Positions 2 to 13,578 of a DNA stretch of 33,000 nt are shown piece after piece. This DNA is from Oscillospiraceae bacterium (GTDB lineage Bacteria > Bacillota > Clostridia > Oscillospirales > Oscillospiraceae), in contig JAFQZI010000104.1 in NCBI GenBank assembly GCA_017406005.1, positions 1-33,000 on the forward strand, written 5' to 3'. Every line of letters begins with the position of its first letter. Within the stretch, counting starts at the first letter, position 1. The notes below the pieces were generated by a model. The model was not told the DNA's origin, ran no database searches, and worked only from the letters and a program-made list of their open reading frames with translations. Position numbers and translations under genes: made by a program.

Positions 2-457
2 CTTGGGGGCATTGTTCCGGATGATAAGCTGGGTGCCGGGGATATGGTGAATGTCCAGGTTGTGGGTGAGATCCACTGCGGCGAAGCAAATGATGCCATT
101 GAGAATATCACGGAGAGCTATCTGCTTCCGGTGAGCCTGGTGGGCAGGAGTGAGCATATCATGCTCCGGGCAAGGGGCAACAGTATGACGAAGCGGGGCA
201 TCTTCCCGGGGGATCTGCTGATCATCCGCCCGGTCGAGGCGTATGAGCCGAGGGCGAATGAAGTGGTGGCGGTTTCCATCGCCGGGGAGGAGGCCTGTTC
301 CAAGGTCATCCGGAGGAAGGAAGACGGGCAGCTTTATTACTGTGCCGATTCCGATGAGACGGATGATTACGGCAATCCGTTCCCGGATTATGCGATGGAT
401 GAAGGGGTCGTTTTCGGTGTGATCGATTATGTGTTCCACGATCCCACGGCCTATTAA
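2..457 (+). CDS. LexA/UmuD-type S24 autoprotease repressor, 5' end outside window
   Basis: The reading frame is open to the left edge, so the N-terminus (probably an HTH DNA-binding domain) is missing. What remains is a complete peptidase S24 domain. VGEIHCGEA resembles the self-cleavage region, with Cys-Gly in place of the common Ala-Gly, as in UmuD. RGNSM carries the predicted catalytic Ser, and the Lys in ACSKVIRR is the likely general base. In this family RecA filaments trigger self-cleavage. It lies 14 bp upstream of a Y-family polymerase gene, so it is either the SOS repressor of that block or a UmuD-like partner. The missing N-terminus would decide which. An internal ATG at 44 has no good ribosome binding site, and homology-like sequence continues upstream of it. 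Confidence 0.85.
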   Translation, partial: LGGIVPDDKLGAGDMVNVQVVGEIHCGEANDAIENITESYLLPVSLVGRSEHIMLRARGNSMTKRGIFPGDLLIIRPVEAYEPRANEVVAVSIAGEEACSKVIRRKEDGQLYYCADSDETDDYGNPFPDYAMDEGVVFGVIDYVFHDPTAY

Positions 458-471
458 TGCGGAGCTGAGAG

Positions 472-1866
472 ATGGCGGCCTATATAGCGATCGACATGAA
501 GAGCTTTTATGCCTCTGTCGAGTGTGTCTTCCGCGGCCTGGATCCGCTGAAGGCCGATCTCCTGGTGGCGGATGAAAGCCGCAGCGACAAGACGATCTGC
601 CTGGCTGTCTCTTCGAGTCTGAAGGCGAAAGGGGTTCCGAGCAGGCCGCGGCTTTTCGAGGCAAAGCAGGCGATAAAGCTGTGGGAGGCGAAAAACCGTC
701 AGCATCTGGATTACCTGATTGCCGTGCCCAGGATGGCGGAATACGAGCGTGTGTCAGCACAGATCTATTCCATCCTTCTCCGGTATGCCGGTGAGGATGA
801 CATCCATGTCTACAGCATTGATGAGAGCTTTGTTTACTGTGATCCGTATCTCCATGCCTATACCAAAAAAGCGGCAGAGCTCGGCATCGAGCCAGCAAGG
901 CTCATGGCCATGACGATGATCAAAGCTGTCCTGGCGGAGACGGGTATTACGGCCACGGTCGGCATCGGCACTAACCTGTATCTTGCAAAAGTGGCGATGG
1001 ACATTGTGGCGAAGAAGGCCCCTGCGGATGAAAACGGAGCCCGTATTGCGGAACTGAATGAAGACAGCTACAAGTATCTGCTCTGGGATCACAAACCGCT
1101 GACGGACTTCTGGCAGATCGGCCCCGGCAAGGCGGCCCGCCTGCAGAACCGCTGGATGTTTACGATGGGAGATATCGCCGTCAGGTCACAGTCGGATGAG
1201 GAGTGGTTTTACCGCACCTTTGGCATTGACGGGGAAATCCTGATCGACCATGCCTGGGGCAGGGAGCCGGTGACGATGAAGGATATTAAATCGTACCATA
1301 CCGATACCCACAGCCTGTCCAACGGGCAGGTGCTCCCGAAGCCGTATGAGTATGTAAAAGCGAGGAATGTTTTCCTCGAGATGGTGGATGTGCTCTGCGC
1401 CAATATGTTTGAGAAGCATATCATTTCCCGCACATTCACCTGGTGGGTGTCGTATGACTGGAAGAGCCTGGAGGTACTCCCGCATTATGACGGGCCGGTG
1501 ACTTTGGATTTCTACGGCAGGCTGCATCCCGTGCACAGCAACGGCACGGCGCGGCTGCGCTTGAAAACGAACAGCCCGAAGCTGGTGGCGGAAGCGATGG
1601 CTGCCCAGTTCGATGCAAAGACGGATCACCGCCTTCTTTACCGGAGGCTTGGTGTCTGCGCAGCGGATGTCGAAGTGGAAAGGGAGACCCTCCAGCTGGA
1701 TCTGTTTATGGATTATGAAAGGCTGGAGAGGGATAGAAAGATCCAGGGAGCCATGCTCAGGGTGCGGGCGAAGTACGGGGCCAATGCGCTCTTCACCGGT
1801 AAGAATCTGGTAGAAGATGCGACCACGCTGATGCGAAATATGCAGATCGGCGGGCACAGAGCATGA
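472..1866 (+). CDS. Y-family DNA polymerase, UmuC/UvrX-like
   Basis: This 464-residue protein has the Y-family layout. The N-terminal AIDMKSFYASVE carries the first catalytic Asp and the aromatic gate region. YSIDESFVY carries the Asp-Glu pair of the palm. IGPGKAARL is the helix-hairpin-helix-like segment, and a little-finger domain follows. The family performs translesion synthesis, and UmuC-like members are SOS-controlled. The ATG follows a GGAG-type site and lies 14 bp after the S24 peptidase gene, so the two are probably cotranscribed. This LexA-like/UmuC/YolD arrangement is common on prophages and conjugative elements of Bacillota. The start is well supported because the first catalytic motif begins within ten residues of it. 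Confidence 0.93.
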   Translation: MAAYIAIDMKSFYASVECVFRGLDPLKADLLVADESRSDKTICLAVSSSLKAKGVPSRPRLFEAKQAIKLWEAKNRQHLDYLIAVPRMAEYERVSAQIYSILLRYAGEDDIHVYSIDESFVYCDPYLHAYTKKAAELGIEPARLMAMTMIKAVLAETGITATVGIGTNLYLAKVAMDIVAKKAPADENGARIAELNEDSYKYLLWDHKPLTDFWQIGPGKAARLQNRWMFTMGDIAVRSQSDEEWFYRTFGIDGEILIDHAWGREPVTMKDIKSYHTDTHSLSNGQVLPKPYEYVKARNVFLEMVDVLCANMFEKHIISRTFTWWVSYDWKSLEVLPHYDGPVTLDFYGRLHPVHSNGTARLRLKTNSPKLVAEAMAAQFDAKTDHRLLYRRLGVCAADVEVERETLQLDLFMDYERLERDRKIQGAMLRVRAKYGANALFTGKNLVEDATTLMRNMQIGGHRA

Positions 1867-1879
1867 AGGAGTATTTGAA

Positions 1880-2413
1880 ATGATTGGCACAATGCCTATG
1901 CCAGAGAATTTCCGTTATAAAGATGTATTATTGCAGGGGCAGCCGCAGCATTCAATCTACGATGATTTCTGCCTGAAGCATCCGCCTATGCCCCTCACCA
2001 AGCGAGCCAAGATCTTTTCTCCCTTTGATGCTCTCAGAGGTTTTGACTTTGAGATTTCTTTAAAGAGAGAGATTTATGAGGAGAAGCACGAGCTTTCAGA
2101 GGGTGAAAAGGAGGAGCTCGGCCGCAGGCTGACGATCCTCTGGAATCTGACGAGGAACAGCCGCCTGGCAAAGCAGAACCGGGTTCACGTTTCCGTCACC
2201 TGGTATGAGCTGTGCACGGATCTGAATCATGAAGCCTGCGGGGTAAAGGGCAAGTATGTCACGGATTCCGGGATTGTCCGGCAGGTGAATCCTCAGTTTA
2301 TACGCCTGGATGACAGGAAGATCGCTCTGGATGACATCCTGATGATTGAGAGCACGGATACGGTTGACGGGCATGAGCTCTTTGCCGAACCGTGGGAGAT
2401 GGAAGTATTATGA
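1880..2413 (+). CDS. YolD-like protein linked to the UmuC-like polymerase
   Basis: The protein has 177 residues. The N-terminal segment with MPLTKRAKIFSPFDALRGF matches what I recall of YolD-like proteins, which almost always follow a UmuC/UvrX-type polymerase and are thought to be a UmuD-like partner or regulator. No catalytic motif is visible. The middle is charged and probably helical (KREIYEEKHELSEGEKEEL), and the C-terminal half looks like a small beta-rich domain. The ATG has a strong AGGAG site and sits 13 bp after the polymerase stop, so it is translated from the same message. The exact biochemical role of the family is not settled. Confidence 0.8.
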   Translation: MIGTMPMPENFRYKDVLLQGQPQHSIYDDFCLKHPPMPLTKRAKIFSPFDALRGFDFEISLKREIYEEKHELSEGEKEELGRRLTILWNLTRNSRLAKQNRVHVSVTWYELCTDLNHEACGVKGKYVTDSGIVRQVNPQFIRLDDRKIALDDILMIESTDTVDGHELFAEPWEMEVL

Positions 2414-2433: not shown

Positions 2434-2550
2434 TTGAAGGATTTGGAAAATTGTAAGATCAAAGGGTTTATCAGTTTTCCCTGTGGTTGCAAGCATTGTA
2501 ATGTTGTCGTCTATGAAGGTGCAACAGAGAGCACATCTACATTACGATAA
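2434..2550 (+). CDS. 38-residue Cys-rich small ORF, coupled to the next gene
   Basis: A TTG codon at 2434 follows an AAGGAGG-type site at the usual distance and opens a 38-codon frame. Its TAA shares its last A with the ATG of the next gene (TAATG), which is typical of translational coupling. The product contains Cys7 and FPCGCKHC (Cys17, 19 and 22), a possible metal-binding knuckle. I recognise no family. It may be a small phage zinc-ribbon-like protein or mainly a coupling leader. Support comes from the ribosome binding site and the overlap, not from homology. Confidence 0.55.
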   Translation: MKDLENCKIKGFISFPCGCKHCNVVVYEGATESTSTLR

Positions 2551-2867
2551 TGGAAAACAAAAATCTTGAAACGCTGGGTGGGCTGTGCAGCCATATGCTT
2601 TCTTCGCCAATGCCAGTATCTGATGATGTACGCGAGTGCCTGACGCAGCTGTGTGTCTGGCCGACCTGCACTGCTTATATCATTTTCGGCATGATACAAA
2701 AAGCCGCCAAGGGCGATACCTCAGCGGCAAAGTTTATTAAGGAAATCAACGGGGAAGGGGCTTCCCTGGATGATGCTGGTATTTCCGATCTGCGTTCTCT
2801 TAGCGATGTGGTTCTCTGCCGCATGGCAGGGTTTACACTGGAGAAGCTGATACAGAGCGAGATGTGA
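2550..2867 (+). CDS. Terminase small-subunit-like phage protein
   Basis: This 105-residue protein carries KGDTSAAKFIKEINGE near its middle. That resembles the GD..AAK segment of many TerS-like proteins of Bacillota phages, where a small DNA-recognition subunit precedes the large terminase subunit. The assignment is supported by position: the next plus-strand phage gene, about 9.5 kb on, is a terminase large subunit. Decayed copies of its 3' end recur at 4143-4243 and 5800-5884, fused to other terminase-locus pieces, so its stop-codon region is one border of the cargo insertions. No nuclease motif is seen. It could instead be an unrelated phage protein of similar size. Confidence 0.55.
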   Translation: MENKNLETLGGLCSHMLSSPMPVSDDVRECLTQLCVWPTCTAYIIFGMIQKAAKGDTSAAKFIKEINGEGASLDDAGISDLRSLSDVVLCRMAGFTLEKLIQSEM

Positions 2868-2872
2868 AAAGC

Positions 2873-2884
2873 CCGGTAAACCGG
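2873..2884 (-). terminator. Weak terminator-like hairpin for the minus-strand PPOX gene
   Basis: On the minus strand CCGG-TTTA-CCGG is followed by GCTTTT, 13 bp past the stop of the flavoprotein gene and just beyond the small-subunit stop. The stem is only 4-5 bp, so function is uncertain. The same flank appears in degraded form near 5865-5880. Confidence 0.3.
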
Positions 2885-2896
2885 AAGTTGTTGAAA

Positions 2897-3310
2897 TCAG
2901 AGCACAAAGCTTTCGGTTTTCAAATCCTGATAAAAACGTCCACTTGTTGCAACAAACTGTAAAACACAATAATCGGGGTCAGTAACTCCTTTTTTATAAA
3001 ACATTTTATCGCCGGTTCGCCAGATTCTTTCTTTTGTTTCCTGATCTGTCAACACATTCATGGTGCCCTTCAACATAATTCCGGTATAACGGAATCTGCC
3101 CCGGTGGTAGAAGTAAATTGATGCTTTTGAATTGGCAAGAAACTGCTTTACACGCATGGAGGATGTATTCGTTGTGAAGTAAAAGGTAACACCATCTCTT
3201 TCTCTCGATGCCAACATAGCTTTAATATTCGGAAAACCATCTTCATCAACAGAACCGATGAATGCTGTTTTCTGAGAATCAACAAATTCAAATATCTCTT
3301 TCTGTGTCAT
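2897..3310 (-). CDS. Pyridoxamine 5'-phosphate oxidase-family flavoprotein (cargo gene 1)
   Basis: This 137-residue protein has the split-barrel flavin-binding layout. AFIGSVDEDGFPNIKAM begins the first strands, FYFTTNTSS and VKQFLANSKASIYFY form the FMN-phosphate region, and FRYTGIMLKGTM follows. It resembles the general-stress-protein-26 group, which binds FMN or F420-type cofactors and reduces small substrates; the substrate is unknown. The ATG has a GAGAGGA site. The gene is antisense to the phage genes and ends 29 bp past the small-subunit stop. It is served by the promoter repeat at 3367-3396. It is the first unit of the cargo array. Confidence 0.85.
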   Translation of the reverse strand: MTQKEIFEFVDSQKTAFIGSVDEDGFPNIKAMLASRERDGVTFYFTTNTSSMRVKQFLANSKASIYFYHRGRFRYTGIMLKGTMNVLTDQETKERIWRTGDKMFYKKGVTDPDYCVLQFVATSGRFYQDLKTESFVL

Positions 3311-3360
3311 TTCATTTTCTGTCCTCTCTGAAAGTTTGTCTCCGCGAATACCGATTTGTT

Positions 3361-3404
3361 GAGTTGATTATACCCCAAATAACAAAATCCTGTAAAGGAG
3401 AAAT
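3361..3404 (-). promoter_or_regulatory. Promoter repeat copy 1
   Basis: Read on the minus strand this is TTTACA (3391-3396), an 18-bp spacer and TATAAT (3367-3372), 57 bp from the flavoprotein start. It matches copy 4 at 12276-12319 at 42 of 44 positions by eye, far beyond what promoter function requires. On the plus strand its right end reads AAAGGAGAAAT, the ribosome binding site that precedes the terminase large-subunit start in copy 4. Confidence 0.8.
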
Positions 3405-3427
3405 TATTAACATGAAAGAGAGAAAGA

Positions 3428-3455
3428 AAAAGCCGATGAAAAAACAACGGCTTTT
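3428..3455. terminator. Probable bidirectional terminator
   Basis: AAAAGCCG and CGGCTTTT form a perfect 8-bp stem around a 12-nt loop, giving a U-tract in both directions. It lies between promoter copy 1 and the 3' end of the flavodoxin gene. It would stop flavodoxin transcripts before they run into the next cassette. The short plus-strand frame over it is probably incidental. Confidence 0.6.
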
Positions 3456-3482
3456 CCCCGAATAAAGCCTGATGATTAAAAA

Positions 3483-4004
3483 CTACCGTAATGCTTCCAG
3501 AATCGGCGCAAGATAAGACTTGTCGGTCCAATCGTGCTTTTGGTCTCCTGCCTCTAACAGTGCCTTTTCCCAAACCTCACAGTCTTCAGGTTTCTTTTTT
3601 GCTACTGCTTTCTGCAGCATTTTACATAGATTCCTGTCAACAAGACTCATCGCGTCCATATCCCAGCCGCCTCTGCAATAGAAGCAGGGCAGACCGGACA
3701 GAGAGTCTTTCAGGTTATAAGCAATAATCTGCTGAAATGCCTTTTCATCATAAGGAGAAGCACCATCACAGAAGATGATTACTTTTTTCCTCTGAAGCTG
3801 AGCGATATTCTTTTTCAGAAAGGAAAGTCCGGCAATTCCAGAGGCGTAGATTCCTCCTCCGAGGATGATCGTGTCATACTGCTTCACTTCATCAATTTTT
3901 GCCTTTTTAGTTTCAATGCAATCATATCCGGTTTCCGTGGCAATCCACTCTGCATAACGCTTTGTAGCACCGTACTTTGATGTATAAAGAATGATTCCTT
4001 TCAC
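3483..4004 (-). CDS. Flavodoxin-domain protein (cargo gene 2)
   Basis: The protein has 173 residues. The N-terminal ILYTSKYGATKRYAEWIA is the flavodoxin phosphate-binding loop, and TIILGGGIYASGI is the second FMN-contact loop. KKVIIFCDGASPYDE forms the next strand and turn. It resembles the Flavodoxin_5/HemG-like group, which carries electrons through FMN. Start choice is GTG at 4004, with a GGAGG site 7 nt upstream. Promoter copy 2 lies about 36 bp before the start, so the gene is a self-contained transcription unit closed by the hairpin at 3428-3455. The redox partner is unknown; the adjacent PPOX-type flavoprotein is only suggestive. Confidence 0.87.
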   Translation of the reverse strand: MKGIILYTSKYGATKRYAEWIATETGYDCIETKKAKIDEVKQYDTIILGGGIYASGIAGLSFLKKNIAQLQRKKVIIFCDGASPYDEKAFQQIIAYNLKDSLSGLPCFYCRGGWDMDAMSLVDRNLCKMLQKAVAKKKPEDCEVWEKALLEAGDQKHDWTDKSYLAPILEALR

Positions 4005-4033
4005 AATACTACCTCCGCAAATTCCAATCTATC

Positions 4034-4078
4034 GTGATGATTATAAGCCAAATAATATAATCCTGTATAGGGGAAGTT
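4034..4078 (-). promoter_or_regulatory. Promoter repeat copy 2 (diverged)
   Basis: On the minus strand this reads TATACA (4064-4069), an 18-bp spacer and TATAAT (4040-4045), upstream of the flavodoxin gene. It aligns along its length with copies 1, 3 and 4 but has several substitutions. On the plus strand it runs into a copy of the terminase large-subunit start at 4084. Confidence 0.75.
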
Positions 4079-4083
4079 ACCTT

Positions 4084-4137
4084 ATGAACAATGATTTGCT
4101 TGCCGAGTTGGCTCGAAGGGAGCTGGGCTGGAGATAA
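4084..4137 (+). pseudogene. Fragment copy of the terminase large-subunit 5' end
   Basis: ATGAACAATGAT followed by codons for LLAELARREL matches the beginning of the large-subunit gene at 12324-12412. The match lacks the 43-44 nt insertion found there, so this copy preserves the older sequence. Homology stops after GAGCTG, and a TAA closes the frame at 17 residues. It follows promoter repeat copy 2 exactly as the full gene follows copy 4. Confidence 0.75.
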
Positions 4138-4142
4138 AATAG

Positions 4143-4243
4143 AAAGCCGCCAAGGGCGAACCCTCAGCGGTATTCCCTCATCGATGTGGTTCTCTGCCGG
4201 CTGGCAGGGTTCACGCCGAAGAAGCTGATGCAGGGTGAAATAT
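4143..4243 (+). pseudogene. Decayed copy of the small-subunit 3' end
   Basis: AAAGCCGCCAAGGGCGA and the following CTCAGCGG, GATGTGGTTCTCTGCCG and AAGCTGATGCAG match 2699-2867 of the small-subunit-like gene, with roughly 60 bases deleted inside. It is joined directly to the large-subunit 5' fragment, in the reverse of the natural gene order. It immediately precedes the 3' end of the next minus-strand cargo gene, the same arrangement as the intact copy. Confidence 0.75.
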
Positions 4244-4282
4244 CAAAGAGAAAGACAGATTTAAATAACGCTGAATGGCAAA

Positions 4283-4833
4283 TCAACTATTCCATTCAAT
4301 CGTGTCTAAAAGTTCAAACATCTCATTTGCTTTTTCTTCACTCTTGGAACGGATTGTAAAGATGTAGGAGCCTCCGTCTTTGGGAACGAGAATACTGATC
4401 AGTTTATAGTCATCTGTCATGAACATATTATTTATGGTAAAATCTACTTCATAGTACTGACAATTCTCAATCCCAAGGACTGTTCTGGTATCCCTTGTTT
4501 CTGATTTTTTCTGCATAGTGGAAAGTGAGGATTTGCTTAATTCCGTTACGGCCTCCATCAGTTGCTGTTCAGGAATAAGGGCAATCGACAAAGGGTCGAG
4601 CACTTCTTCTTTATAGTAAACCTTTATCAGGCTGTCTCTATCCTCATCGCCGGAATAAGGAAACACTTTTGCATAGTCTTTTTCGACATTGGCAGAGTGA
4701 CCGTTCGGCACTTCCATCGTCATGCGGGAAAGAATATTCACTCTTCCTTCCGGAAGGTCTCTCTCCTCCGCATATGCGAAAGCGCAGAACATAGTCGTAA
4801 TGAATGCCAAAAGTAAGCAGATTGTTTTTTCAT
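4283..4833 (-). pseudogene. Exported hypothetical protein with a start-proximal frameshift (cargo gene 3)
   Basis: The open frame gives LAFITTMFCAFAYA then EERDLPEG, which is the back half of a signal peptide. The natural start is the ATG at 4831-4833, with a GGAGGG site, but it is out of frame. It is followed by six A residues; seven would restore MKKTICLLLAFITTMFCAFA, a perfect signal sequence cleaved after AYA. The mature part (about 150 residues) has no motif I recognise. It looks like a small secreted or lipid-facing beta-rich domain, ending in a regular SEEKANEMFELLDTIEW helix. Options are a disabled gene, phase variation at the A-tract, or a base error in the assembly. Confidence 0.65.
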
Positions 4834-4969
4834 AGTTATACCCTCCAGTAATTTTGTGAAGCGAATTTGAAGTATTCGCAACTTTAAAACGGTATCATTA
4901 CAAGATTTATTTTTTTATATCATACCAAATACTGTGCGTCAACAGTAACCTTCTGCCGTCATGGTATCC

Positions 4970-5761
4970 TCATACTTTTCTCGCTTTTGCAAAGATTCTT
5001 TCGTACCTCAGTACTGCTTCTTTTGAGAAATCGTCTTTCAGATCGATCATAACCCTGTTAAAAAAGAATTCCTTTTCTGTCTCATTCAGAGGAGCGGCCA
5101 GTAATTCCAGCCCCACAGAATTGAAATGTTGATAAACGGCCTCAGCCGATGGAAAGGAGAACAGATTGGACTCCATTGAAGCTTTTACATCGGAAAATCC
5201 AACCTCTTTCATCATGATGTTAAACTGCTCTATGCTATCCGGAACATACCACGGGGAATGCCAACTTTCGTACCGTGCATTGAAGCCAAGTTCGTTTATC
5301 GCTCGTCCGGCGTACTTGATCAACGGGTGTTCAGTGTTCAACACCGGGAACTGCACGATGAAATCACCGCCCTGTTTCAATGCCTTGTTCAATCAGCTTA
5401 AACCATCCTCTGTCTCAACGACCCAATGAAGAACAGAATTGGAAAATATCAGATCAAATTGTTCTTCGAATTCAATCTCGTTGATTCCACACTTCCGGAA
5501 TTCCAGATTTGACACACCTTTTGCAGCCATTGATTCCTTTGCTTTTTTGATCATAGATTCAGAGGAATCTATTCCCAGTATATATCCGTAGGGAACTTTC
5601 TTCGCCAGAAGGACTGTCAGGTTTCCGCTTCCGCATCCGGCATCCAGTACGCACATATTTGGTGAAAAGCGGATCATATCGATCAGGTATTCACCAACAG
5701 AAGATTGAATGCTGTTTGCAGCTGCATATGCTTCGCCATTCCAATTGAACTTGTTTTTCAT
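4970..5761 (-). pseudogene. SAM-dependent methyltransferase with an in-frame TGA (cargo gene 4)
   Basis: Two back-to-back frames in the same phase together make one class I methyltransferase of about 264 residues, close in look to trans-aconitate methyltransferase-type enzymes. VLDAGCGSGNLTVLL is the SAM-binding motif I, LGIDSSESM is motif II, and FDLIFSNSVLHWV is the motif IV/V region. A TGA at 5393-5395 interrupts after EDGLS and is followed by LNKALKQGG. A Trp codon TGG is the natural residue there, so one G-to-A change explains it. The TTG just after the stop could allow reinitiation but would yield only the C-terminal half. A GAGGAT site precedes the first ATG. Confidence 0.8.
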
Positions 5762-5788
5762 TTACATCCTCACGAATCCCAATCTTTG

Positions 5789-5884
5789 GAGTTGATATAT
5801 GGTCCTCTGCAGCCTGGAAGGGTTCACTCTGGAAAAGCTGATGCAGAACGAGATGTGAAGATCTCGGCATACCGGAATTTGTTA
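5789..5884 (+). repeat. Fusion of a promoter-repeat stub and the small-subunit 3' end
   Basis: GAGTTGATATA (5789-5799) matches the left end of promoter repeat copies 1 and 4. It passes directly into TGGTCCTCTGCAGCCTGG and on through the stop codon, matching 2808-2890 of the small-subunit gene and its trailer (CATACCGGAATTTGTT against TAAACCGGAAGTTGTT). The minus-strand ASCH fragment ends within it, just as the flavoprotein gene ends beside the intact copy. Confidence 0.7.
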
Positions 5885-6166
5885 TACAACTTCAAATTCT
5901 TCACAAATAAGTTCGATTTGGCTGTTGAAAGTCTGTCCGATAGTTTTCAGTTCATCTGTGAAGAACTTCTGATGTACATTCTTCCAGTATTCCAGAGTGC
6001 GATCGCCTTCGCCTTCCAGGAAGGAGTGTTTTTCGCTGACTTTTTCGAATGTTGTAATGTATACATTCGTTGTTCGGATAATACATATTGCTTCATCCTC
6101 GGAATTCATGATTACCCTGTATTCTCCGTTTAATCCGGATTTTCTCCACAATTCTTCCGCTGTCAT
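5882..6166 (-). pseudogene. ASCH-domain protein, N-terminally truncated (cargo gene 5)
   Basis: The 94-residue open frame matches the C-terminal two thirds of ASCH-domain proteins: EAICIIRTTNVYITTFEKVS, then EGEGDRTLEYWKNVHQKFF and a terminal ICEEFEVV. ASCH domains are RNA-binding or hydrolytic beta-barrels of the PUA-like fold. Full proteins have about 140-150 residues, so the first part is missing. Homologous-looking sequence (WIEKNRK, then IVEDEWIKSRFAGEAS) can be read upstream, but it is split between two frames around a T7 run at 6221-6227. It then stops at a promoter-repeat remnant. The gene is therefore probably dead. An AGGTGA before the ATG could still allow a short product. Confidence 0.65.
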
Positions 6167-6251
6167 TGATGCTTCACCTGCAAATCTCGATTTAATCCAT
6201 TCGTCTTCAACTATTTTCTGTTTTTTTCAATCCACTCAACGGCAAGCCTGA

Positions 6252-6266
6252 TTTATCATGATGGTT
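6252..6266 (-). repeat. Remnant of the promoter repeat
   Basis: ATCATGATGGTTAT matches ATCGTGATGATTAT of repeat copy 2 at 12 of 14 positions. It sits exactly where the ASCH gene is truncated and where the nitrilase gene ends. The remainder of the repeat is gone. A still shorter piece, TCGTGATG, is present at 10262-10269 beside the GH3 gene start. Confidence 0.4.
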
Positions 6267-7185
6267 ATCGCTCTGTCACAATCAGTTCCAGAACATCCGG
6301 CCGTGCATAATGCCCGACAGCATCGTGTTCCATTTTACACTTTGCGGGAAGAGTCATGTCAAGATCGGCATATATGATTGTCTCACTGTCCCAGACAGGC
6401 TCTGTGACGAAATGGCCATACGGGTCAATGATACAGCTGCCTCCGCGACAGGCCAGTTCAGGGAGTCGGGCTATTGCATCCTGCTCATTGAGGCAGGCCG
6501 GATAAGAGCTTTTTCGGACGAGCATATCAGCATTGATAAAATAGCATTTTCCTTCGATTGCAATATGCTGTATGGTTGCCTGCCATTCAGGATTGTCGTT
6601 GGTGTTCGGAGAAATATAAATCGTGATCCCTTTCTGGTAAAGCGCCACTCTGGCAAGAGGCATATAGCTTTCCCAGCAGATCAGGCTCCCGATCGGCCCC
6701 CACGGAGTGTCGGTGATCGGAAAATAATCCTTGTTTGCATCACCCCACACCAGTCTTTCACTTCCCGTGGGTTTGAGCTTGCGATGTACTTTATAGGAGC
6801 CGTCCGGTTCAAAAATGGCATTGCTGTTAAAAAGCGTGCCGATTACGGCATCCCGTTCTGAAAAACCGATGCTGATATAAGCACCCGTCTTTTTCGCTGC
6901 AGCTGCAAGCTGCTCAAATTCCGCCTCTCCGGCAATGACCGATGCATCGTGGTATCTCTTCCAGTCTTCTCTGCCAGGTTCCGTCCGCTTCCCCATGCTG
7001 AATCCGAAGTTCATCCCGATCGGATACCCCGGGATAAACAGTTCGGGGAATACGATCAGTTCTGCTTTGTGCGCTGCCGCTTCTTCAATATAGTCCAGCG
7101 CTTTCTTCAGGGAAGCCTGTTTATTAAACATTACCGGTTCAGCCTGCACAAGGGCTGTTTTGCATGATCCCTTCAAATCTTTCAT
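6265..7185 (-). CDS. Nitrilase (carbon-nitrogen hydrolase) (cargo gene 6)
   Basis: The 306-residue length fits a full nitrilase. The catalytic triad is visible: Glu48 in LIVFPELFIPGYP, a Lys in HRKLKPTGSERLVWG (about residue 136) and Cys170 in LICWESYMPLAR. The CWE signature and the ERLVWG segment point to true nitrilases, which convert nitriles to carboxylates and ammonia, rather than amidases. There is no signal peptide, so it is cytoplasmic. The start lacks a striking ribosome binding site but aligns with the family. No promoter repeat is visible in the 153 bp upstream, so it may be read from the esterase transcript. The natural substrate cannot be told from sequence. Confidence 0.88.
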   Translation of the reverse strand: MKDLKGSCKTALVQAEPVMFNKQASLKKALDYIEEAAAHKAELIVFPELFIPGYPIGMNFGFSMGKRTEPGREDWKRYHDASVIAGEAEFEQLAAAAKKTGAYISIGFSERDAVIGTLFNSNAIFEPDGSYKVHRKLKPTGSERLVWGDANKDYFPITDTPWGPIGSLICWESYMPLARVALYQKGITIYISPNTNDNPEWQATIQHIAIEGKCYFINADMLVRKSSYPACLNEQDAIARLPELACRGGSCIIDPYGHFVTEPVWDSETIIYADLDMTLPAKCKMEHDAVGHYARPDVLELIVTER

Positions 7186-7338
7186 CGTCTGTTACCTCGA
7201 AAATCCAAAGTTAATATATAACTACCATCCGACTGATTATTTACGCTTTTTGTAACAGTCCTCATTAATAGTATCTCTCCTGATATTTCTGTGCTGAATG
7301 AATTACCCCGGGGAAAGACCATAGCTTGCAGATAAAAA

Positions 7339-8226
7339 CTATTTTCTTATCATTGCCGCGACGTCACGCTGTACATTATCAGCTTCGGGGATCGGAAAGA
7401 GCGGATAGCAATGATTCATTTTATCTTCTTCGATATAGTTGATGCTGATGCCCTTTTCGGCACACAGTTTTTTGAACCTGCGGGCATCGAGTATGAAAAT
7501 CTCATGCGTTCCGAAATATACGGTGATGGGGGCAAGGCCGCTGAAGTCTCCGTAGATGGGGCTTAGTCTGTAATTATGCACATCAACGTTTCCGGCCCAG
7601 TTTTTGCCCATATGCCTCAGCCCGTCCGCTGATAATGAAGGGTCGACCCGATCCAGCTCTTTCGGGATCTCTGTCTCCATGCTGATGTCGAGCCAGGGTG
7701 AAAAGAGGATGATCTGCCCGGGCTGAGGTAATTTGATTTCCTTCAGATATTCAGCGAATCCGAGAGCCAGTCCGCCCCCCGAAGAATCCCCCATGAGAGT
7801 GATTTTCTCGGGGCTTATTTCCGCCGTCAGTTTTTTCCACAGTTCGGTCAGATACTCGTACGCAACCTCAAAAGTATGATCCGGAGCTTTTTTATAAATC
7901 GCCATGACAGCGGTCACATCTGCTTCTCTGGCCATTCTGTCGCAAAACTGCCAGTGCTGACTGACAGGCTGCTCACAGTACGATCCGCCATGCAGATATA
8001 AAAGCGCTTTGCCGCGACCTTTATTCAGGAAAAAAGTCTCACAGCCGCAAATGATCTCTTTCGTGACCTCTGATTTGATCCCCTTGCGCGGCGCCTCAAC
8101 CGGTTTGCGGTTGATTGCTCTGAGTTCTTCGATGTATTTTGCCCGGCGCACCGGATCGGAAGTCTTTTTCTTATATCCGGTAAGCCAAAAATAGCAATAT
8201 GCTATCTTACTCATGAAACTCGTCAT
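7339..8226 (-). CDS. Alpha/beta hydrolase, HSL-type esterase (cargo gene 7)
   Basis: The protein has 295 residues. LYLHGGSYCEQP holds the HGG oxyanion motif of hormone-sensitive-lipase-type esterases. LMGDSSGGGLAL holds the nucleophile Ser. An Asp near FILDARRF and the His in MNHCYPLF complete the triad. The NHCYPLFPIPEA ending is typical of Bacillota steryl-acetyl-hydrolase-like esterases. I chose ATG 8226, which has a GGAGG site 7 nt upstream, over a longer GTG start that would include the ribosome binding site itself. The N-terminal AYCYFWLTGY may associate with membrane. Promoter repeat copy 3 lies about 56 bp upstream. The nitrilase gene follows on the same strand. Confidence 0.86.
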   Translation of the reverse strand: MTSFMSKIAYCYFWLTGYKKKTSDPVRRAKYIEELRAINRKPVEAPRKGIKSEVTKEIICGCETFFLNKGRGKALLYLHGGSYCEQPVSQHWQFCDRMAREADVTAVMAIYKKAPDHTFEVAYEYLTELWKKLTAEISPEKITLMGDSSGGGLALGFAEYLKEIKLPQPGQIILFSPWLDISMETEIPKELDRVDPSLSADGLRHMGKNWAGNVDVHNYRLSPIYGDFSGLAPITVYFGTHEIFILDARRFKKLCAEKGISINYIEEDKMNHCYPLFPIPEADNVQRDVAAMIRK

Positions 8227-8275
8227 TATTCGCCTCCAAAAAAACACAGAATCGTCCTATATACTGAAAGTTATC

Positions 8276-8311
8276 GAGATGATTATACCCCAAATAATAA
8301 AACCTGGAATT
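8276..8311 (-). promoter_or_regulatory. Promoter repeat copy 3 (right end lost)
   Basis: GATTATACCCCAAATAATAA is identical to copy 4, placing a minus-strand TATAAT at 8282-8287 upstream of the esterase. The -35 side has diverged (AATTCC or ATTCCA), and the ribosome-binding-site end seen in copies 1 and 4 is missing. The identity breaks shortly before the 3' end of the GH3 gene. Confidence 0.7.
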
Positions 8312-8342
8312 TCATAATGTCTTCTGTATGTATAACGGACTT

Positions 8343-10250
8343 CTAGTCCGAAATCGTTTCGGGCTCTTTTTTCGGCTGGAAGTCGCTTCCGTATGAAAGA
8401 CCGTAGCCGTGTTCCAGGAAAGATTTATCGGTACCGATCTGGTCGATACTGCCGTACCACGGCGATGGAAGCTTTCCCGCGAAATCCGCGCATCCGCATA
8501 ACACATCGGAAATTCCTTTTCCTTCCGAACCCGGAAGATAACACATTACAACACTGTCCCAGTCATCAAAGTCTTCGGAATTAATGATAACGTTTCTGCC
8601 CGCAATAATGCAGGCAACAATGGATTTCTCCATTTTCTTTGCCTCTTCGATGGCTTTTTTGTTGTCAGGAAGACCAAGTGCGCCGCAAAGCTCCAGATCC
8701 GCAGTATCGCCGTTCCATTCTGCATAGGCGTTTTCGCCTACACAAAGCAGTACCACATCGGCATTTTTAGCTAAACTCTTATTGGTAATGATTTCAATGC
8801 CGTAATCTTCAGCATAACGTTCAAAAGCATCCAGTATGGTTGTTACGCCCGCGATTTCTTTGCTTGAAGATCCGTTCCATTCAATCGTCCAGCCGCCGCA
8901 TTGTGCTGAGGCATTATCCGCCGCCGGTCCTGTTATATAGACTTTCGTACCTTCCTTTAGCGGAAGGACATCCGAATCGTTTTTCAGGAGGATAAGACTC
9001 TCCTCAACCAGTTTTTCCGCGATCTTTCTGTATTCCAAAGAACCGGTTTCCTTCTGCTTTGTCTCTGCCTTTTCGAGGAAAGGATCTTCAAACAGTCCTT
9101 CCTCTTTTTTGACTTTGAGAATTCTCGTTACAGCATCATCCACGCGTTCTTCACTGATTTCACCGTTTTTCACGGCATCCGTGATGATCTGTTTTGCCTC
9201 ATCGAAGCGTTCGACCTCCATAAGCATATCGATCCCAGCATTAATGCTTGTGATGATTTGCTCTCTGTAGGACGAACCCGAAATATGCTGTACAGATTCC
9301 CAGTCACTTACAATAAAACCTTCAAAACCCATCTCATTTTTCAGCTTCATGATGTACTCTTTGTTTTCGTGCATCTTCACGCCGTTTAAGGATGAATGGC
9401 TGATCATGATGGTCTGTACGCCGGCATCGATTTGTGCCTGATATACTTTCAAGAGTTCTTTTATCTCATCGTCGGTAAGTCCGGCATTCCCCCGATCGAT
9501 GAGCATTTCGGTATCTCCTTTCTCACCCGTGTTATATTCCACATTTCCATCCGCAAGATAATGCTTTGCACAGACAACCAGCCCTCCATCGATCAGCCCC
9601 TTTGTGTAAGCGATGCTGAGCTTTGTGATTGTTTCCAGATCCGAACCGTAGGATTCATAAGTTCTTCCCCAGCGCGGATCTACGGACTGCGCAATGCACG
9701 GAGAATAATTCCATAGCATATGGCAGAGCTTTGCTTCGTCAGCCGTAATCAGGCCGACCTGATACGCAAGCTCTTCATCATTTGCTGCGCTCTGTCCGAT
9801 GTTATGGGGAAAATATACGGCATTTAAACAGTAATTCACACCGTGGACATCATCCTGTCCGTAGATATAGGGTATCCCTGCATCCGATAAAAGTGCGGCA
9901 TTCTGATATCTGTCCACGAGACTCCGCCAGGATACGGCATCGATGCTGCCTGCCGTGGAGAGGATACTGCCGTAATCGTTATCTTTCATCTTATCCGGGC
10001 TCACATTGTAGACAGCAGGCATTACCATTTGTGCCGCTTTCTGCTCAAGCGACAGACTTGCAACTATCTCTTCGGGACTCATTGATGCATATCCGGTACA
10101 TTTGTATTTGGATTCGGAGACTGAGTATTTTTCCGCTTCCCCCGCTTTCGGAGAATTGCCGTTTAAAGAACAGCCTGCTGCCGATATCAGCATCGTCAGA
10201 AGAAGTAAAGTTGATATTGTTTTTTTCTTCCTAACGCTTAACTCTCCCAT
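8343..10250 (-). CDS. Glycoside hydrolase family 3 lipoprotein, beta-glucosidase-like (cargo gene 8)
   Basis: The protein has 635 residues. After a basic start it has a hydrophobic stretch ending in LISAAGC, a lipobox, so it is predicted to be anchored outside the membrane. A GH3 N-terminal barrel follows, with ARWGR-like DPRWGRTYESYG, CAKHYLADG and the nucleophile Asp in GFIVSDWESV (about residue 316). The C-terminal sandwich contains VYITGPAADN and CVGENAYAEWNGD, and ends near LEHGYGLSYG. Such enzymes remove terminal beta-linked glucose (or similar) from oligosaccharides. The ribosome binding site is weak (GGGTTGAAAAATG). It is the largest cargo gene and appears intact. Confidence 0.9.
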   Translation of the reverse strand: MGELSVRKKKTISTLLLLTMLISAAGCSLNGNSPKAGEAEKYSVSESKYKCTGYASMSPEEIVASLSLEQKAAQMVMPAVYNVSPDKMKDNDYGSILSTAGSIDAVSWRSLVDRYQNAALLSDAGIPYIYGQDDVHGVNYCLNAVYFPHNIGQSAANDEELAYQVGLITADEAKLCHMLWNYSPCIAQSVDPRWGRTYESYGSDLETITKLSIAYTKGLIDGGLVVCAKHYLADGNVEYNTGEKGDTEMLIDRGNAGLTDDEIKELLKVYQAQIDAGVQTIMISHSSLNGVKMHENKEYIMKLKNEMGFEGFIVSDWESVQHISGSSYREQIITSINAGIDMLMEVERFDEAKQIITDAVKNGEISEERVDDAVTRILKVKKEEGLFEDPFLEKAETKQKETGSLEYRKIAEKLVEESLILLKNDSDVLPLKEGTKVYITGPAADNASAQCGGWTIEWNGSSSKEIAGVTTILDAFERYAEDYGIEIITNKSLAKNADVVLLCVGENAYAEWNGDTADLELCGALGLPDNKKAIEEAKKMEKSIVACIIAGRNVIINSEDFDDWDSVVMCYLPGSEGKGISDVLCGCADFAGKLPSPWYGSIDQIGTDKSFLEHGYGLSYGSDFQPKKEPETISD

Positions 10251-10333
10251 TTTTCAACCCGTCGTGATGCCTTTCATCTATGGCATTTCATTACTGCTTT
10301 TCTTATAATCAAGCACTATTGTTTTTCTCCTCT

Positions 10334-11359
10334 CTAAGTAAACCGAATAATCTGCTTCTCGGTATCAACTGTTGCCTCGACGTCGAACGGGATGATACAG
10401 CGCGGCTTTGCATGCCCGATGTTTATGTTGCACACGACTGGAATCTTTGGATCACCGATTACATCGACAAGAATCTGTTTGTACTCGCGATCGTAGGTCT
10501 CATCCATAGGTTTTCCTGTCAGGACACCGCTGACCACATCAAATACGCCTCTTTCTTTCAGGTATTCCAGCGACTTCCGATACTGGTTTGGAGCCATCTT
10601 TTCCTCACTGGATTCCAGGAGAAGGATGCGGCCCTTCCAATCCTCTCGATCCGGAAACAGCTGGTATTTCTCACATAATAGAGGCATATCTGCATACCGG
10701 GTTCCGTTGAAGATATCATGTATGGAATCGATACAGCCGCCGAGAATCTTTCCAGAAAACACATGGGAGCCCTGAAGCAATTCAAATCCCCGGTCGGGAT
10801 GCGACTTCAGTGGTTTTCCGATCTGATCAGGTCCGAATCCGGTTCTTTCCTCGTACCAGAGGTCGCTCGGAGTAATGGATTTAATTTTACCGGTACTTAT
10901 GAGCTCTTCAAAATACTTCTTCGTATATGGAAGCATATCCGTATCCAGTTCACATATGTCCGCCAGGAACGATTGCCCATAGAACGTCCTAAGCCCTACT
11001 TTATGGAGCATAAAGTGATTGATTGTGGTATCAGAAAAGCCGAGAAACGTTTTGTCAGAAACGGCTTTCGCGAGCTCACCATTCTCAAACAGATAAGGGA
11101 GCAGTCGGTAGGTATCGTCTCCACCGATCGCACAGAGGATCATGTCGATGCCCGGGCTTTGAAAGGCTTCCAGCAGATCTGCAGCACGTTCGGCGGGATG
11201 ATTCTTCACATATTCGATACCTTTAAGCGCATGTGGCATAAACCGCACAGACAAACCGAAGTCTTTCAGCCGTTTTATTCCCAATTCAATCTCGTGTTTT
11301 ACAAAAGCTTCTCCGATAGTACCACTTGATAAGCTCACGATAGCAACATTCTTAATCAT
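10334..11359 (-). CDS. S66-family peptidase, LD-carboxypeptidase/MccF-like (cargo gene 9)
   Basis: This 341-residue protein carries the S66 triad. The Ser is in LGFSDTT (about residue 109), the Glu in GRILLLESSEEK and the His in NINIGHAKPR. The family includes murein LD-carboxypeptidases and MccF, which cleaves microcin C-type toxic peptide-nucleotides. The length and the GFSDTT and NIGHAKPR segments look more like the MccF-type branch, so a self-immunity or detoxifying role is possible. I chose ATG 11359 because the upstream GTG would include the GGAGG ribosome binding site as codons. It has no signal peptide. It probably shares a transcript with the DUF1801 and GNAT genes upstream on this strand. 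Confidence 0.87.
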   Translation of the reverse strand: MIKNVAIVSLSSGTIGEAFVKHEIELGIKRLKDFGLSVRFMPHALKGIEYVKNHPAERAADLLEAFQSPGIDMILCAIGGDDTYRLLPYLFENGELAKAVSDKTFLGFSDTTINHFMLHKVGLRTFYGQSFLADICELDTDMLPYTKKYFEELISTGKIKSITPSDLWYEERTGFGPDQIGKPLKSHPDRGFELLQGSHVFSGKILGGCIDSIHDIFNGTRYADMPLLCEKYQLFPDREDWKGRILLLESSEEKMAPNQYRKSLEYLKERGVFDVVSGVLTGKPMDETYDREYKQILVDVIGDPKIPVVCNINIGHAKPRCIIPFDVEATVDTEKQIIRFT

Positions 11360-11412
11360 ACTCGCCTCCACAAAGTTCTACATCGCCATAATCTATTTCA
11401 TAAACTCCGATT

Positions 11413-11748
11413 TTATATGCTGTTTTTTTCAAAGCTCCATCGGGCAATTTCAGCAATCAATTCCATGGGCAGTTCTTTGCTGTTAGGCAGTTGGATCGCA
11501 CCCTTGCTGGTTTTATAACCTGCCAGTTGATCTGCAAAAGCCTCGATTGCCTCAGGTCCGGGATACAATCCGATGTGTTTTTTTGCCGAAGCAAAATGAA
11601 TGATATTCCTGCCTTTCCAAAATGTCGGCATTCCCCAGGACAGACGTTCCTGTGCATCAGGTATAGCAGTGCGGATCGTATCATAGATCGCTAACAAACG
11701 AGGTTGAATCGTACTGTCCTGCGTATGAATATATTCCTGTATCGTCAT
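11413..11748 (-). CDS. DUF1801 (YdhG-like) protein (cargo gene 10)
   Basis: The protein has 111 residues with the DUF1801 pattern: LSWGMPTFWKGRNIIHFASAK in two short runs, HIGLYPGPEAIEAF, then YKTSKGAIQLPNSKELP and a closing helix. The fold is small alpha/beta and its function is unproven; some relatives were proposed as frataxin-like iron chaperones. An AGAGGTG site precedes the ATG. The gene lies 24 bp after the GNAT gene and 53 bp before the S66 peptidase gene, so the three probably form one minus-strand operon. Confidence 0.85.
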   Translation of the reverse strand: MTIQEYIHTQDSTIQPRLLAIYDTIRTAIPDAQERLSWGMPTFWKGRNIIHFASAKKHIGLYPGPEAIEAFADQLAGYKTSKGAIQLPNSKELPMELIAEIARWSFEKNSI

Positions 11749-11772
11749 GACTGCACCTCTATAGACTGGAAT

Positions 11773-12225
11773 TTACTTTCCTGTCGGGATAGAATCGTTC
11801 AGACTTTTATTGCGATAGTTCAGATTTGTTCTGAGAGAATACCCTTGCTCTTCCCAGAATGCATTGGCCACATCATTATCCTTGAATACAAAGCAAAATA
11901 TTTTTTGAATTCCTTCCTTCTTCAGCGCATCTTCTGCAAGAGAGAGAAGGCGAGCGGCAATCCCTGAACGCCGATAATCGGGGTGAACACAAAGATGATG
12001 AATGATTGCTCGTCGACCATCATGGCCGGTAAGAATCACACCAATAATCTTATTCCCCTTTATAGCAGCAAAGCAGGTGTTCGGGTTCCTTTTCAGATAT
12101 CTGTCAATTCCCTCTCTTGAGTCATCGATAGGATTTAATGCGCGTCGACTCTGCTCGGTACTTTGCCATAATTCATAGACCGCATCATAATCATCTATTG
12201 TGACTTGCTTAATCCTGTATTCCAT
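11773..12225 (-). CDS. GNAT-family N-acetyltransferase (cargo gene 11)
   Basis: This 150-residue protein is a single GNAT domain. The acetyl-CoA motif A is LCVHPDYRRSGIAARLL, with the R-R-x-G-I-A pyrophosphate loop, and motif B is FWEEQGYSLRTNLNYRNKSL. Members acetylate amines on small molecules, peptides or antibiotics; the substrate here is unknown. The GGGAGG ribosome binding site is strong. The promoter of repeat copy 4 lies 57 bp upstream, the same distance as for the first cargo gene. It is the first gene of the likely GNAT, DUF1801, S66-peptidase transcript. Confidence 0.88.
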   Translation of the reverse strand: MEYRIKQVTIDDYDAVYELWQSTEQSRRALNPIDDSREGIDRYLKRNPNTCFAAIKGNKIIGVILTGHDGRRAIIHHLCVHPDYRRSGIAARLLSLAEDALKKEGIQKIFCFVFKDNDVANAFWEEQGYSLRTNLNYRNKSLNDSIPTGK

Positions 12226-12275
12226 AATGCCTCCCTGCCTGCAAACATAATCATATAAACAAATCCTGTTCTGTC

Positions 12276-12319
12276 GAGTTGATTATACCCCAAATAATAA
12301 AATCCTGCAAAGGAGAAAT
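12276..12319 (-). promoter_or_regulatory. Promoter repeat copy 4
   Basis: On the minus strand it reads TTTGCA (12306-12311), an 18-bp spacer and TATAAT (12282-12287), upstream of the GNAT gene. On the plus strand its right end AAAGGAGAAAT is the ribosome binding site of the terminase large-subunit start at 12324. This copy shows the original context of the element, at the small/large-subunit border. Confidence 0.8.
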
Positions 12320-12323
12320 CAAA

Positions 12324-12855
12324 ATGAACAATGATTATCCCGACGCGCATTGCGCGTGCGACGTTCCTTGATAATAATATGCTTGCCGAGCTGGCTCGAA
12401 GGGAGCTGACCCGGCGATATTATTCCGAATACCTGGCATATGCCTACGGAGACAGCTGGATCAGAACCAGGCTGTCTTCTTTTTTTGCCAGAAAAATACA
12501 GTCTTTCATCGAAACGGATACCGGCCACGCCTATGACATTATGATCATCGAGTGCCCGCCGGAGCACGGAAAGAGCATGACTGTGAGCGAATCTCTGCCG
12601 AGCTGGTATCTGGGGAGATATCCCGAACAAAATATCATTCTGCCATTCTATATTTCCGATCCGGCGAAAGCACCCTGGGAGGCAGACTATGTGGACCAGT
12701 GGACTTCGTTCCCGAACGGAAAAAATGATGATATGGTCGATGCCACTTCGCAGGCACTGGCAAGGATGATTTATTCCTCCGGAGATATCCGGGAAGAAAA
12801 AGAACAAAAGTCTATCTTAGATATCGACAGACTTTTTAATCCATATGGAATGTGA
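12324..12855 (+). pseudogene. Terminase large subunit with insertion and large internal deletion
   Basis: The open frame (from ATG 12331) encodes LLAELARREL-like and YYSEYLAYAYGDSW sequence. IIECPPEHGKSMTVSE follows, the ATPase Walker A region of phage terminases. The protein then jumps to DYVDQWTSFPNGKNDDMVDA, the C-terminal nuclease-end signature. Functional large subunits have over 400 residues, while this one has about 175; Walker B and most of the nuclease are gone. The original start ATG 12324 now gives a 15-codon dead frame, because 43-44 nt are inserted at 12336-12379 relative to the fragment at 4084. It therefore cannot package DNA. Confidence 0.88.
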
Positions 12856-13497: not shown

Positions 13498-13571
13498 GCG
13501 TTGTTAGCTCAGCTGGATAGAGCGTCTGGCTACGGACCAGAAGGTCGGGGGTTCGAATCCCTCACAGCGTG
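13498..13571 (+). tRNA. tRNA-Arg (anticodon ACG)
   Basis: A full 74-nt cloverleaf can be drawn. The acceptor GCGTTGT pairs with ACAGCGT through two G-T pairs, and the D stem is GCTC/GAGC. The anticodon stem TCTGG/CCAGA surrounds loop CTACGGA, giving anticodon ACG. The T arm is GGGGG-TTCGAAT-CCCTC with one G-T pair, and G is the discriminator. CCA is not encoded. ACG is normally edited to ICG and reads CGU, CGC and CGA. The two wobble pairs in the acceptor stem are unusual but tolerable. Confidence 0.95.
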
Positions 13572-13578
13572 CTCAAAA

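Follow-up and report, generated by a model that had tools for sequence, protein, structure and literature searches.

Why do eleven genes of unrelated function, all read from the minus strand, lie between the two terminase genes of a prophage remnant? The question arises from a 33,000-nucleotide (nt) stretch of an Oscillospiraceae bacterium (assembly GCA_017406005.1, contig JAFQZI010000104.1, positions 1 to 33,000), called the window in the following, which is contig C81 of a 3.5-Mb metagenome-assembled genome (MAG) in 174 contigs. C-numbers without a genome prefix denote contigs of this genome, L-numbers extracted loci, G060 and G061 other genomes. From left to right, the remnant comprised an S24/LexA-like gene, a UmuC-like gene, an open reading frame (ORF) without Pfam match, a gene resembling that of the small terminase subunit (TerS), the eleven minus-strand genes, a broken gene for the large terminase subunit (TerL) and a small gene. 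A promoter-like sequence element recurs among the eleven genes, here termed cargo. We regard it as likely that the TerS-TerL junction is a slot for morons, a concept reportedly due to Hendrix and Juhala, in which one cargo replaces another between conserved flanks and, in grounded prophages, the units pile up. Morons are described, in the available part of the source, as extra genes between adjacent phage genes with their own promoter and terminator and often a deviating guanine-cytosine (GC) content (PMC2920897).

Occupied and empty terminase junctions

A census was made of loci in which both TerS and TerL (or the TerL head) were seen, matches with fewer than 150 bases between them marking an empty slot. 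Dropped were L053 and L224, in which the contig ends before one flank, the remnants L195, C7 and C17, and loci without a TerS match. Ten slots were occupied (C81, C68, C34, C157, C38, L054, L055, L058, L066, L193) and 13 empty (C156, L041, L042, L056, L057, L059, L061, L063, L064, L065, L069, L070, L071), thus the insertions separate genes that are adjacent in relatives, as morons do. The element was present at nine of the ten occupied slots (split in C34) and at none of the empty ones, with a Fisher p of 1.2e-5 on a hand tally that ignores relatedness; seven of these nine loci had supplied sequences to the element model, C34 and L193 as well as the remnant L195 had not. The cargo was antisense in 12 of 13 occupied loci (binomial p 0.003), the tally covering the ten census loci plus C17, L053 and L195, with C7 left out as mixed. 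From viral contigs, three close loci and the best 80 of at least 589 wider relatives were kept; 24 of these 80 (L067-L090) were scanned for TerS, and the three positives (L069-L071) were all empty.

The same flanks enclosed different cargo at five loci of the window's genome and in prophages of other Clostridia MAGs, an outcome that the initial annotation of the window had named as support for its proposal of repeated capture. The cargo consisted of an FAD/FMN reductase, an HTH protein and an MFS transporter in C68, a methyltransferase and a zinc-ribbon-like protein (below cut-off) in C34, PrsW in C157, a ParE/Phd pair in C38, a ferredoxin-type protein in L053, a GNAT protein and a beta-lactamase-fold hydrolase in L054, an aminoglycoside-acetyltransferase-family protein in L058, a single 76-amino-acid ORF without Pfam match in about 0.4 kb in L055, and one or more proteins without Pfam match in L066. 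The TerL proteins of C34 and C157 share 96% and 95% identity with the C68 protein; the cargo of the three loci had no similarity at E 1e-5. For the window, the annotated eleven minus-strand genes and their Pfam names were right, except that the methyltransferase is split and the ASCH profile matched only from position 23. Most cargo ORFs there still cover their Pfam domains despite the broken TerL gene.

As expected of morons, some cargo recurred in more than one phage locus. A nitrilase adjoined TerS or TerL pieces in three MAGs (the window, L193 with 80%, and L224 with 61%, beside TerS), and PrsW was cargo in two (C157 and L193, 79% over 28 amino acids). In a search of 60 genomes, including the window's own, 27 matched the nitrilase at E<=0.001, with 15 relatives at 59% identity or more, among them that of L224; the sole other match in the own genome was a 29% relative. 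Around seven close orthologues elsewhere in the genus, no element or terminase was found within the fetched stretches of roughly 1.5 kb or less per side, and the upstream sequences of these loci looked mutually unlike, except for the near-identical pair L206/L207. The second refuting condition of the initial annotation, one gene order conserved at a chromosomal locus free of terminase flanks, was examined for this gene alone. The cargo therefore seems to come out of the gene pool of the genus, with promoter and slot apparently staying in place as it changes. The initial annotation had proposed the capture of promoter-bearing cargo between conserved flanks: the capture is supported, but the array lies in a remnant, and the promoter would seem a property of the slot and not of the individual genes captured. 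The GH3 enzyme had matches in 49 of the 60 genomes, but those listed from outside the window are distant (23-38% identity, except a 67% fragment in G004) and therefore gave no useful genomic context. A GC content at least 0.049 below that of the phage flanks, the deviation often seen in morons, was found for the cargo of seven of ten loci.

The proposed terminase flanks are present, although TerL is broken and TerS is identified mainly by position and size. The window TerL aligns to residues 18-112 and 429-496 of the 496-amino-acid C68 protein, and the short stretch from the ATG at 12324 sits in a different frame; it is a broken remnant. The TerS-like gene immediately precedes TerL in the 13 empty loci, and all nine members scanned matched PHROG 2412. 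A fold search with a TerS model (mean predicted local distance difference test score, pLDDT, 76.6) against PDB and viral libraries gave no match at E<=0.001. The 2090 phage records matching TerL were all below 60% identity. In a tree of 21 TerL rows (L058 being unusable owing to a shifted frame), cargo loci from one host tended to cluster; 5 of 18 inner branches were starred, and a single origin is not claimed from this tree.

The promoter-like element and the hairpin within TerS

Four copies of the element had been annotated in the window, and all were recovered by a profile. The identity of copies 1 and 4 was confirmed at 42 of 44 bases (95.5% over 44 nt; E 2.4e-14 in the 3.5-Mb genome), as was the overlap with the TerL ribosome-binding site. 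Aligning 12 copies taken from several hosts showed conservation of this site, of both promoter boxes and of about 20 bases past TATAAT. The claimed TATAAT with an 18-bp spacer held for three of the four copies, in which a minus-strand TTTACA-like box, N18 and TATAAT were recognised with an agreement of 10-11 of 12 bases as a sequence match; the copy at 8262 kept TATAAT, but no -35 box was recognised. The element reads as a putative antisense promoter (TTTACA-N18-TATAAT) abutting the TerL ribosome-binding site. Two of the three annotated remnants were retained, one at 6248 and one joined to a TerS tail at 5773-5796, while that at 10256-10268 is too short to prove.

A 30-nt core, with up to three mismatches allowed, occurred at five places in the whole assembly, against none for a reversed-pattern control. 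All five strict copies (two in C81, one each in C68, C17 and C7) are on contigs with TerS or TerL pieces; the piece on C17 is short, and those on C7 start 5.9 kb off. Element matches in twelve other relatives were weak and mostly partial.

A terminator-like hairpin lies on the minus strand inside the TerS coding sequence. Copies were found in TerS remnants of the window (4143-4170, -20.1 kcal/mol) and of L033 (-22.7 kcal/mol), and in that of C17 by pattern match only, with no folding. In 14 of 16 TerS genes, which are mutually related, at most 5.2% of random synonymous recodings folded as stably; L042 (27%) and L070 (64%) failed, and L061 passed via a different fold. The motif was missing from 5 of 21 TerS genes, and only one compensating pair was seen in 15 sequences. 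The hairpin copies persisting in TerS remnants would fit a kept terminator.

Scars, stacking and alternative explanations

Two scars made of flank pieces lie between cargo genes of the window; their TerL-head and TerS remnants are absent from the initial annotation. In one (4084-4270) the TerL head is fused to the middle and tail of TerS, a joint found similarly in C157 (L033); in the other (5773-5883) half an element is fused to a TerS tail. Comparable arrays were found in C7 (TerS pieces, CAAX protease, uridine-kinase-like gene, acyltransferase, TerL head), in C17 (TerS hairpin piece, SH3 gene, TerS tail by eye, SDR gene, element) and, in another MAG, in L193 (TerS, membrane protein, element, TerL head, nitrilase, PrsW fragment). 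The orientation of the scars was uniform within each of the four arrays. The window, C7 and C17 are prophage remnants. In C157, L053 and L055 the ORFs for TerL, portal and capsid are uninterrupted beside the cargo, the slot is therefore not confined to dead prophages; the breakage of essential phage genes that defines a grounded prophage was found in the window (TerL) and not in these three. By PHROGs, L054 has portal and endolysin, L055 a major head protein and L058 a primase/helicase; at the remaining loci these genes were named by similarity.

These arrangements suggest a mechanism. In one clade of temperate gut-Clostridia phages the TerS-TerL junction would be a site for accessory genes, which in nearly all cases run antisense and follow a conserved antisense promoter (TTTACA-N18-TATAAT with a start region of about 20 nt) that stops at the TerL ribosome-binding site. 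Its likely function would be the expression of host-useful genes in lysogeny, with the promoter firing away from TerL and the cargo transcripts ending at the minus-strand hairpin within TerS or TerS-derived copies; both activities we infer from the motifs. On induction, late transcription would cross the slot antisense to the cargo and might silence it, by analogy with a nested antisense gene of a staphylococcal phage (PMC11087260). Cargo from the gene pool of the host genus would be swapped between phages by recombination in the conserved flanks. Packaging-defective prophages may gain further units by illegitimate recombination with related phages, a stacking that would leave element, TerL-head and TerS-tail scars and end in an island of host-useful genes. 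The full form of this reading is possible, and we advance it tentatively: the junction would be a standing expression site with a promoter by TerL and a terminator that lies in TerS or derives from it; its cargo would be swapped via the flanks, integron-like without an integrase, and its grounded copies would grow into arrays handing phage-sampled genes to the host.

Several observations weigh against the moron slot. The cargo of C38 has no element, that of C68 is on the sense strand, and plus-strand genes also occur between the C7 scars. The cargo GC content is similar to that of the flanks in C157 and L193 and higher in C68. In empty loci the TerS hairpin is no less conserved, and it may therefore serve another end, e.g., packaging. 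Promoter-like sites across the region showed a modest excess (23 against 17.3 expected), and the source MAG has 6.6% contamination. Genes between the two terminase subunits are also not unique, as five of them stand there in the gene table of Stenotrophomonas phage DLP4; those with a visible strand share the terminase strand, and the available part of that paper describes neither a repeated promoter nor variable cargo (PMC6469090). Finally, 9 of 26 profile matches of the element in three genomes are away from terminase pieces, the element is therefore not confined to the slot. The profile matched 13 times in the window's genome (10 at TerS/TerL pieces; outside in C133, C173 and C92), eight times in G060 (five at slots; outside at C5:31615, C9 and C33) and five times in G061 (two at slots; outside in C74, C30 and C64).

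This scatter, which the initial annotation had named as refuting its proposal, applies in part to the profile matches and not to the five strict copies. It supports an interspersed repeat that bears a promoter, transports genes and often happens to lie at terminase junctions. An ORF stands on the promoter side of eight of the nine outside copies (doubtful at C64; none seen at C30), and two EamA-type transporter genes recognised by eye in two MAGs (L192 8695-9615 and L196 4190-5089, 76-77% identical) are each near an element copy outside a terminase slot. The strongest matches, however, are at TerS/TerL pieces, all five strict cores are on such contigs, and the outside copies may be either relics of decayed slots or independent copies; we consider such a repeat rather improbable. 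Less so, though still unlikely, is a dead prophage that simply gathered host genes, with the element as an old TerL leader duplicated by chance. TerL is broken in the window, C7 and C17 are remnants, respiratory genes recognised by eye stand in other gaps of C68 too, and grounded prophages are described, in the portion of the paper at hand, as defective hotspots of gene transfer that gather host-useful genes (PMC6379469). Against this sink speak the element-bearing cargo beside uninterrupted TerL, portal and capsid ORFs, the one-way orientation, and the lack of the element at the 13 empty junctions, by which it is not obviously an ancestral leader. As far as that source goes, the slot also differs from grounded prophages by its single junction, mostly one orientation and repeated promoter-like element.

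Integron arrays resemble the slot in the same-strand order of unrelated, interchangeable genes with repeated boundaries, and element and left boundary might be recombination sites of an unknown integrase. We hold this highly improbable: no integron integrase (TIGR02249) above the curated cut-off was found in the window's genome, weaker matches occur in all 14 control genomes as well, no recombinase is among the Pfam matches of the array, scar joints vary between sites, and the element, present on several units, reads as a promoter.

With the moron slot as the preferred reading, its nearest relatives are morons proper, for which the excerpt available reports entry hotspots, persistence after phage loss and different morons at hotspots of Burkholderia phages (PMC2920897). 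In contrast to these, the conserved promoter of the slot seems fixed while the cargo changes, the position is inside the TerS-TerL pair, and units are stacked with flank scars. In S. aureus, according to the accessible text, morons are swapped by lateral transduction between related phages with near-identical packaging modules (PMC12829572); those morons lie at the prophage end, whereas the slot is internal and therefore has flanking homology on both sides. In S. aureus phage 80alpha a phage operon encloses an antisense gene that has a promoter of its own; as far as described there, this gene is an immunity inhibitor in the cI operon (PMC11087260), whereas the slot holds diverse host-type enzymes in the packaging operon, known from sequence. 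No report of such a TerS-TerL slot was found in the open-access PubMed Central literature. On this reading the slot is an unusual moron type, with a seemingly fixed promoter and exchanged cargo, situated inside the packaging pair, and its units are stacked where the prophage is grounded. It bears on how phages exchange accessory genes while sparing essential modules: several related loci of one genome show the slot both filled and empty, with a recurring promoter-like element, scars and cargo in common, the exchange route is therefore directly testable. It may also point to those genes of uncultured gut Clostridia that are expressed from a prophage first and retained by the host afterwards.

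Features of the window and further cargo zones

Features of the prophage remnant and its cargo array in the window
Feature	Position	Strand	Basis
S24/LexA-like gene	44..457	+	PF00717; 96% identity to C68 prophage gene
UmuC-like polymerase gene	472..1866	+	ORF; 77% relative adjoining TerS remnant in L225 (another MAG)
ORF between UmuC-like gene and TerS	1880..2413	+	no Pfam match; 58% relative in L225
TerS-like gene (left flank)	2550..2867	+	91% identity to L009 TerS; PHROG 2412, function unknown
Terminator-like hairpin inside TerS coding sequence	2700..2727	-	T-run; -17.8 kcal/mol
Conserved left boundary after TerS stop; recurs at 5857-5890	2868..2900		left-flank alignment by eye
Cargo 1, PNPOx-like flavoprotein	2897..3310	-	PF01243
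Element copy 1	3347..3406	-	profile 67.7 bits; promoter reads minus
Hairpin with T-run after flavodoxin gene	3425..3465	-	-16.9 kcal/mol, z -4.1
Cargo 2, flavodoxin	3483..4004	-	PF12724
Element copy 2	4020..4079	-	profile 53.9 bits
TerL-head remnant joined to TerS remnant	4084..4136	+	sequence similarity; similar joint in L033
TerS middle-to-tail remnant with hairpin 4143-4170	4134..4270	+	sequence similarity
Cargo 3, ORF without Pfam match	4283..4810	-	ORF list
Cargo 4, methyltransferase, two ORFs (4970-5392, 5393-5761)	4970..5761	-	PF13847 on 5393-5761; 4970-5392 no match
Element left half fused to TerS tail	5773..5796	-	alignment; joint to TerS tail
TerS-tail remnant	5797..5883	+	82% to 2806-2892
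Cargo 5, ASCH-domain ORF, probably truncated	5882..6166	-	PF04266 positions 23-102 only
Element left half	6240..6262	-	left-half matrix score 16.9, 5th best window site
Cargo 6, nitrilase	6265..7185	-	PF00795
Cargo 7, alpha/beta hydrolase	7339..8247	-	PF07859
Element copy 3, -35 side degraded	8262..8304	-	profile 32.4 bits
Cargo 8, GH3 enzyme	8343..10250	-	PF00933 + PF01915
Possible element remnant, too short to prove	10256..10268	-	absent from top matrix sites
Cargo 9, S66 LD-carboxypeptidase	10334..11371	-	PF02016 + PF17676
Cargo 10, DUF1801	11413..11748	-	PF08818
Cargo 11, GNAT acetyltransferase	11773..12225	-	PF00583
Element copy 4, overlaps plus-strand TerL ribosome-binding site	12262..12320	-	profile 62.3 bits
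Broken TerL gene (right flank)	12324..12855	+	similarity to relatives' TerL
Small gene, follows TerL in this phage family	13022..13294	+	87% identity to L009 5614-5886

We take the gene at 472..1866 to be UmuC-like, and the ORF that follows it is presumably YolD-like. Both, followed by TerS pieces, stand in the window's order in L225 (3542-5665), ahead of an antisense gene. Just right of the prophage remnant is a tRNA-Arg gene (acg, 13498-13572), possibly an old attachment site. In an Rfam scan of the window a tRNA was the sole feature to reach the cut-off, and a reading of the features as structured RNA was dropped. A defence island was likewise rejected: PADLOC, run on eight window cargo proteins (leaving out the GH3, ASCH and two methyltransferase ORFs) and two others, gave one weak match, in L054.

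A second cargo zone was seen between TerL and portal in L009 (1652-5190), L034 (3156-7003), L033 (4704-5030), L053 (2344-2981), L056 (4249-4736) and L054 (12215-13414); by eye, its genes were cytochrome/ResB/CcsA-like, amidohydrolase, toxin-antitoxin-like pairs and dehydrogenase-like. A third position, antisense between the virion protein gene p621 and TerS, is possible in L055 (8635-9205) and L054 (7331-7953). The p621 gene lies just upstream of TerS in the window's clade and about 4-5 kb downstream of TerL in the distant phages L059, L060, L062, L063, L065, L069 and L071, the head module is thus rearranged between them. At two prophage remnants of the window's genome, L009 (5941-6264) and L036 (3352-3678) encode closely similar small proteins starting MKNIN..ANA.NDKELENVVGG, which by eye resemble bacteriocin leaders.

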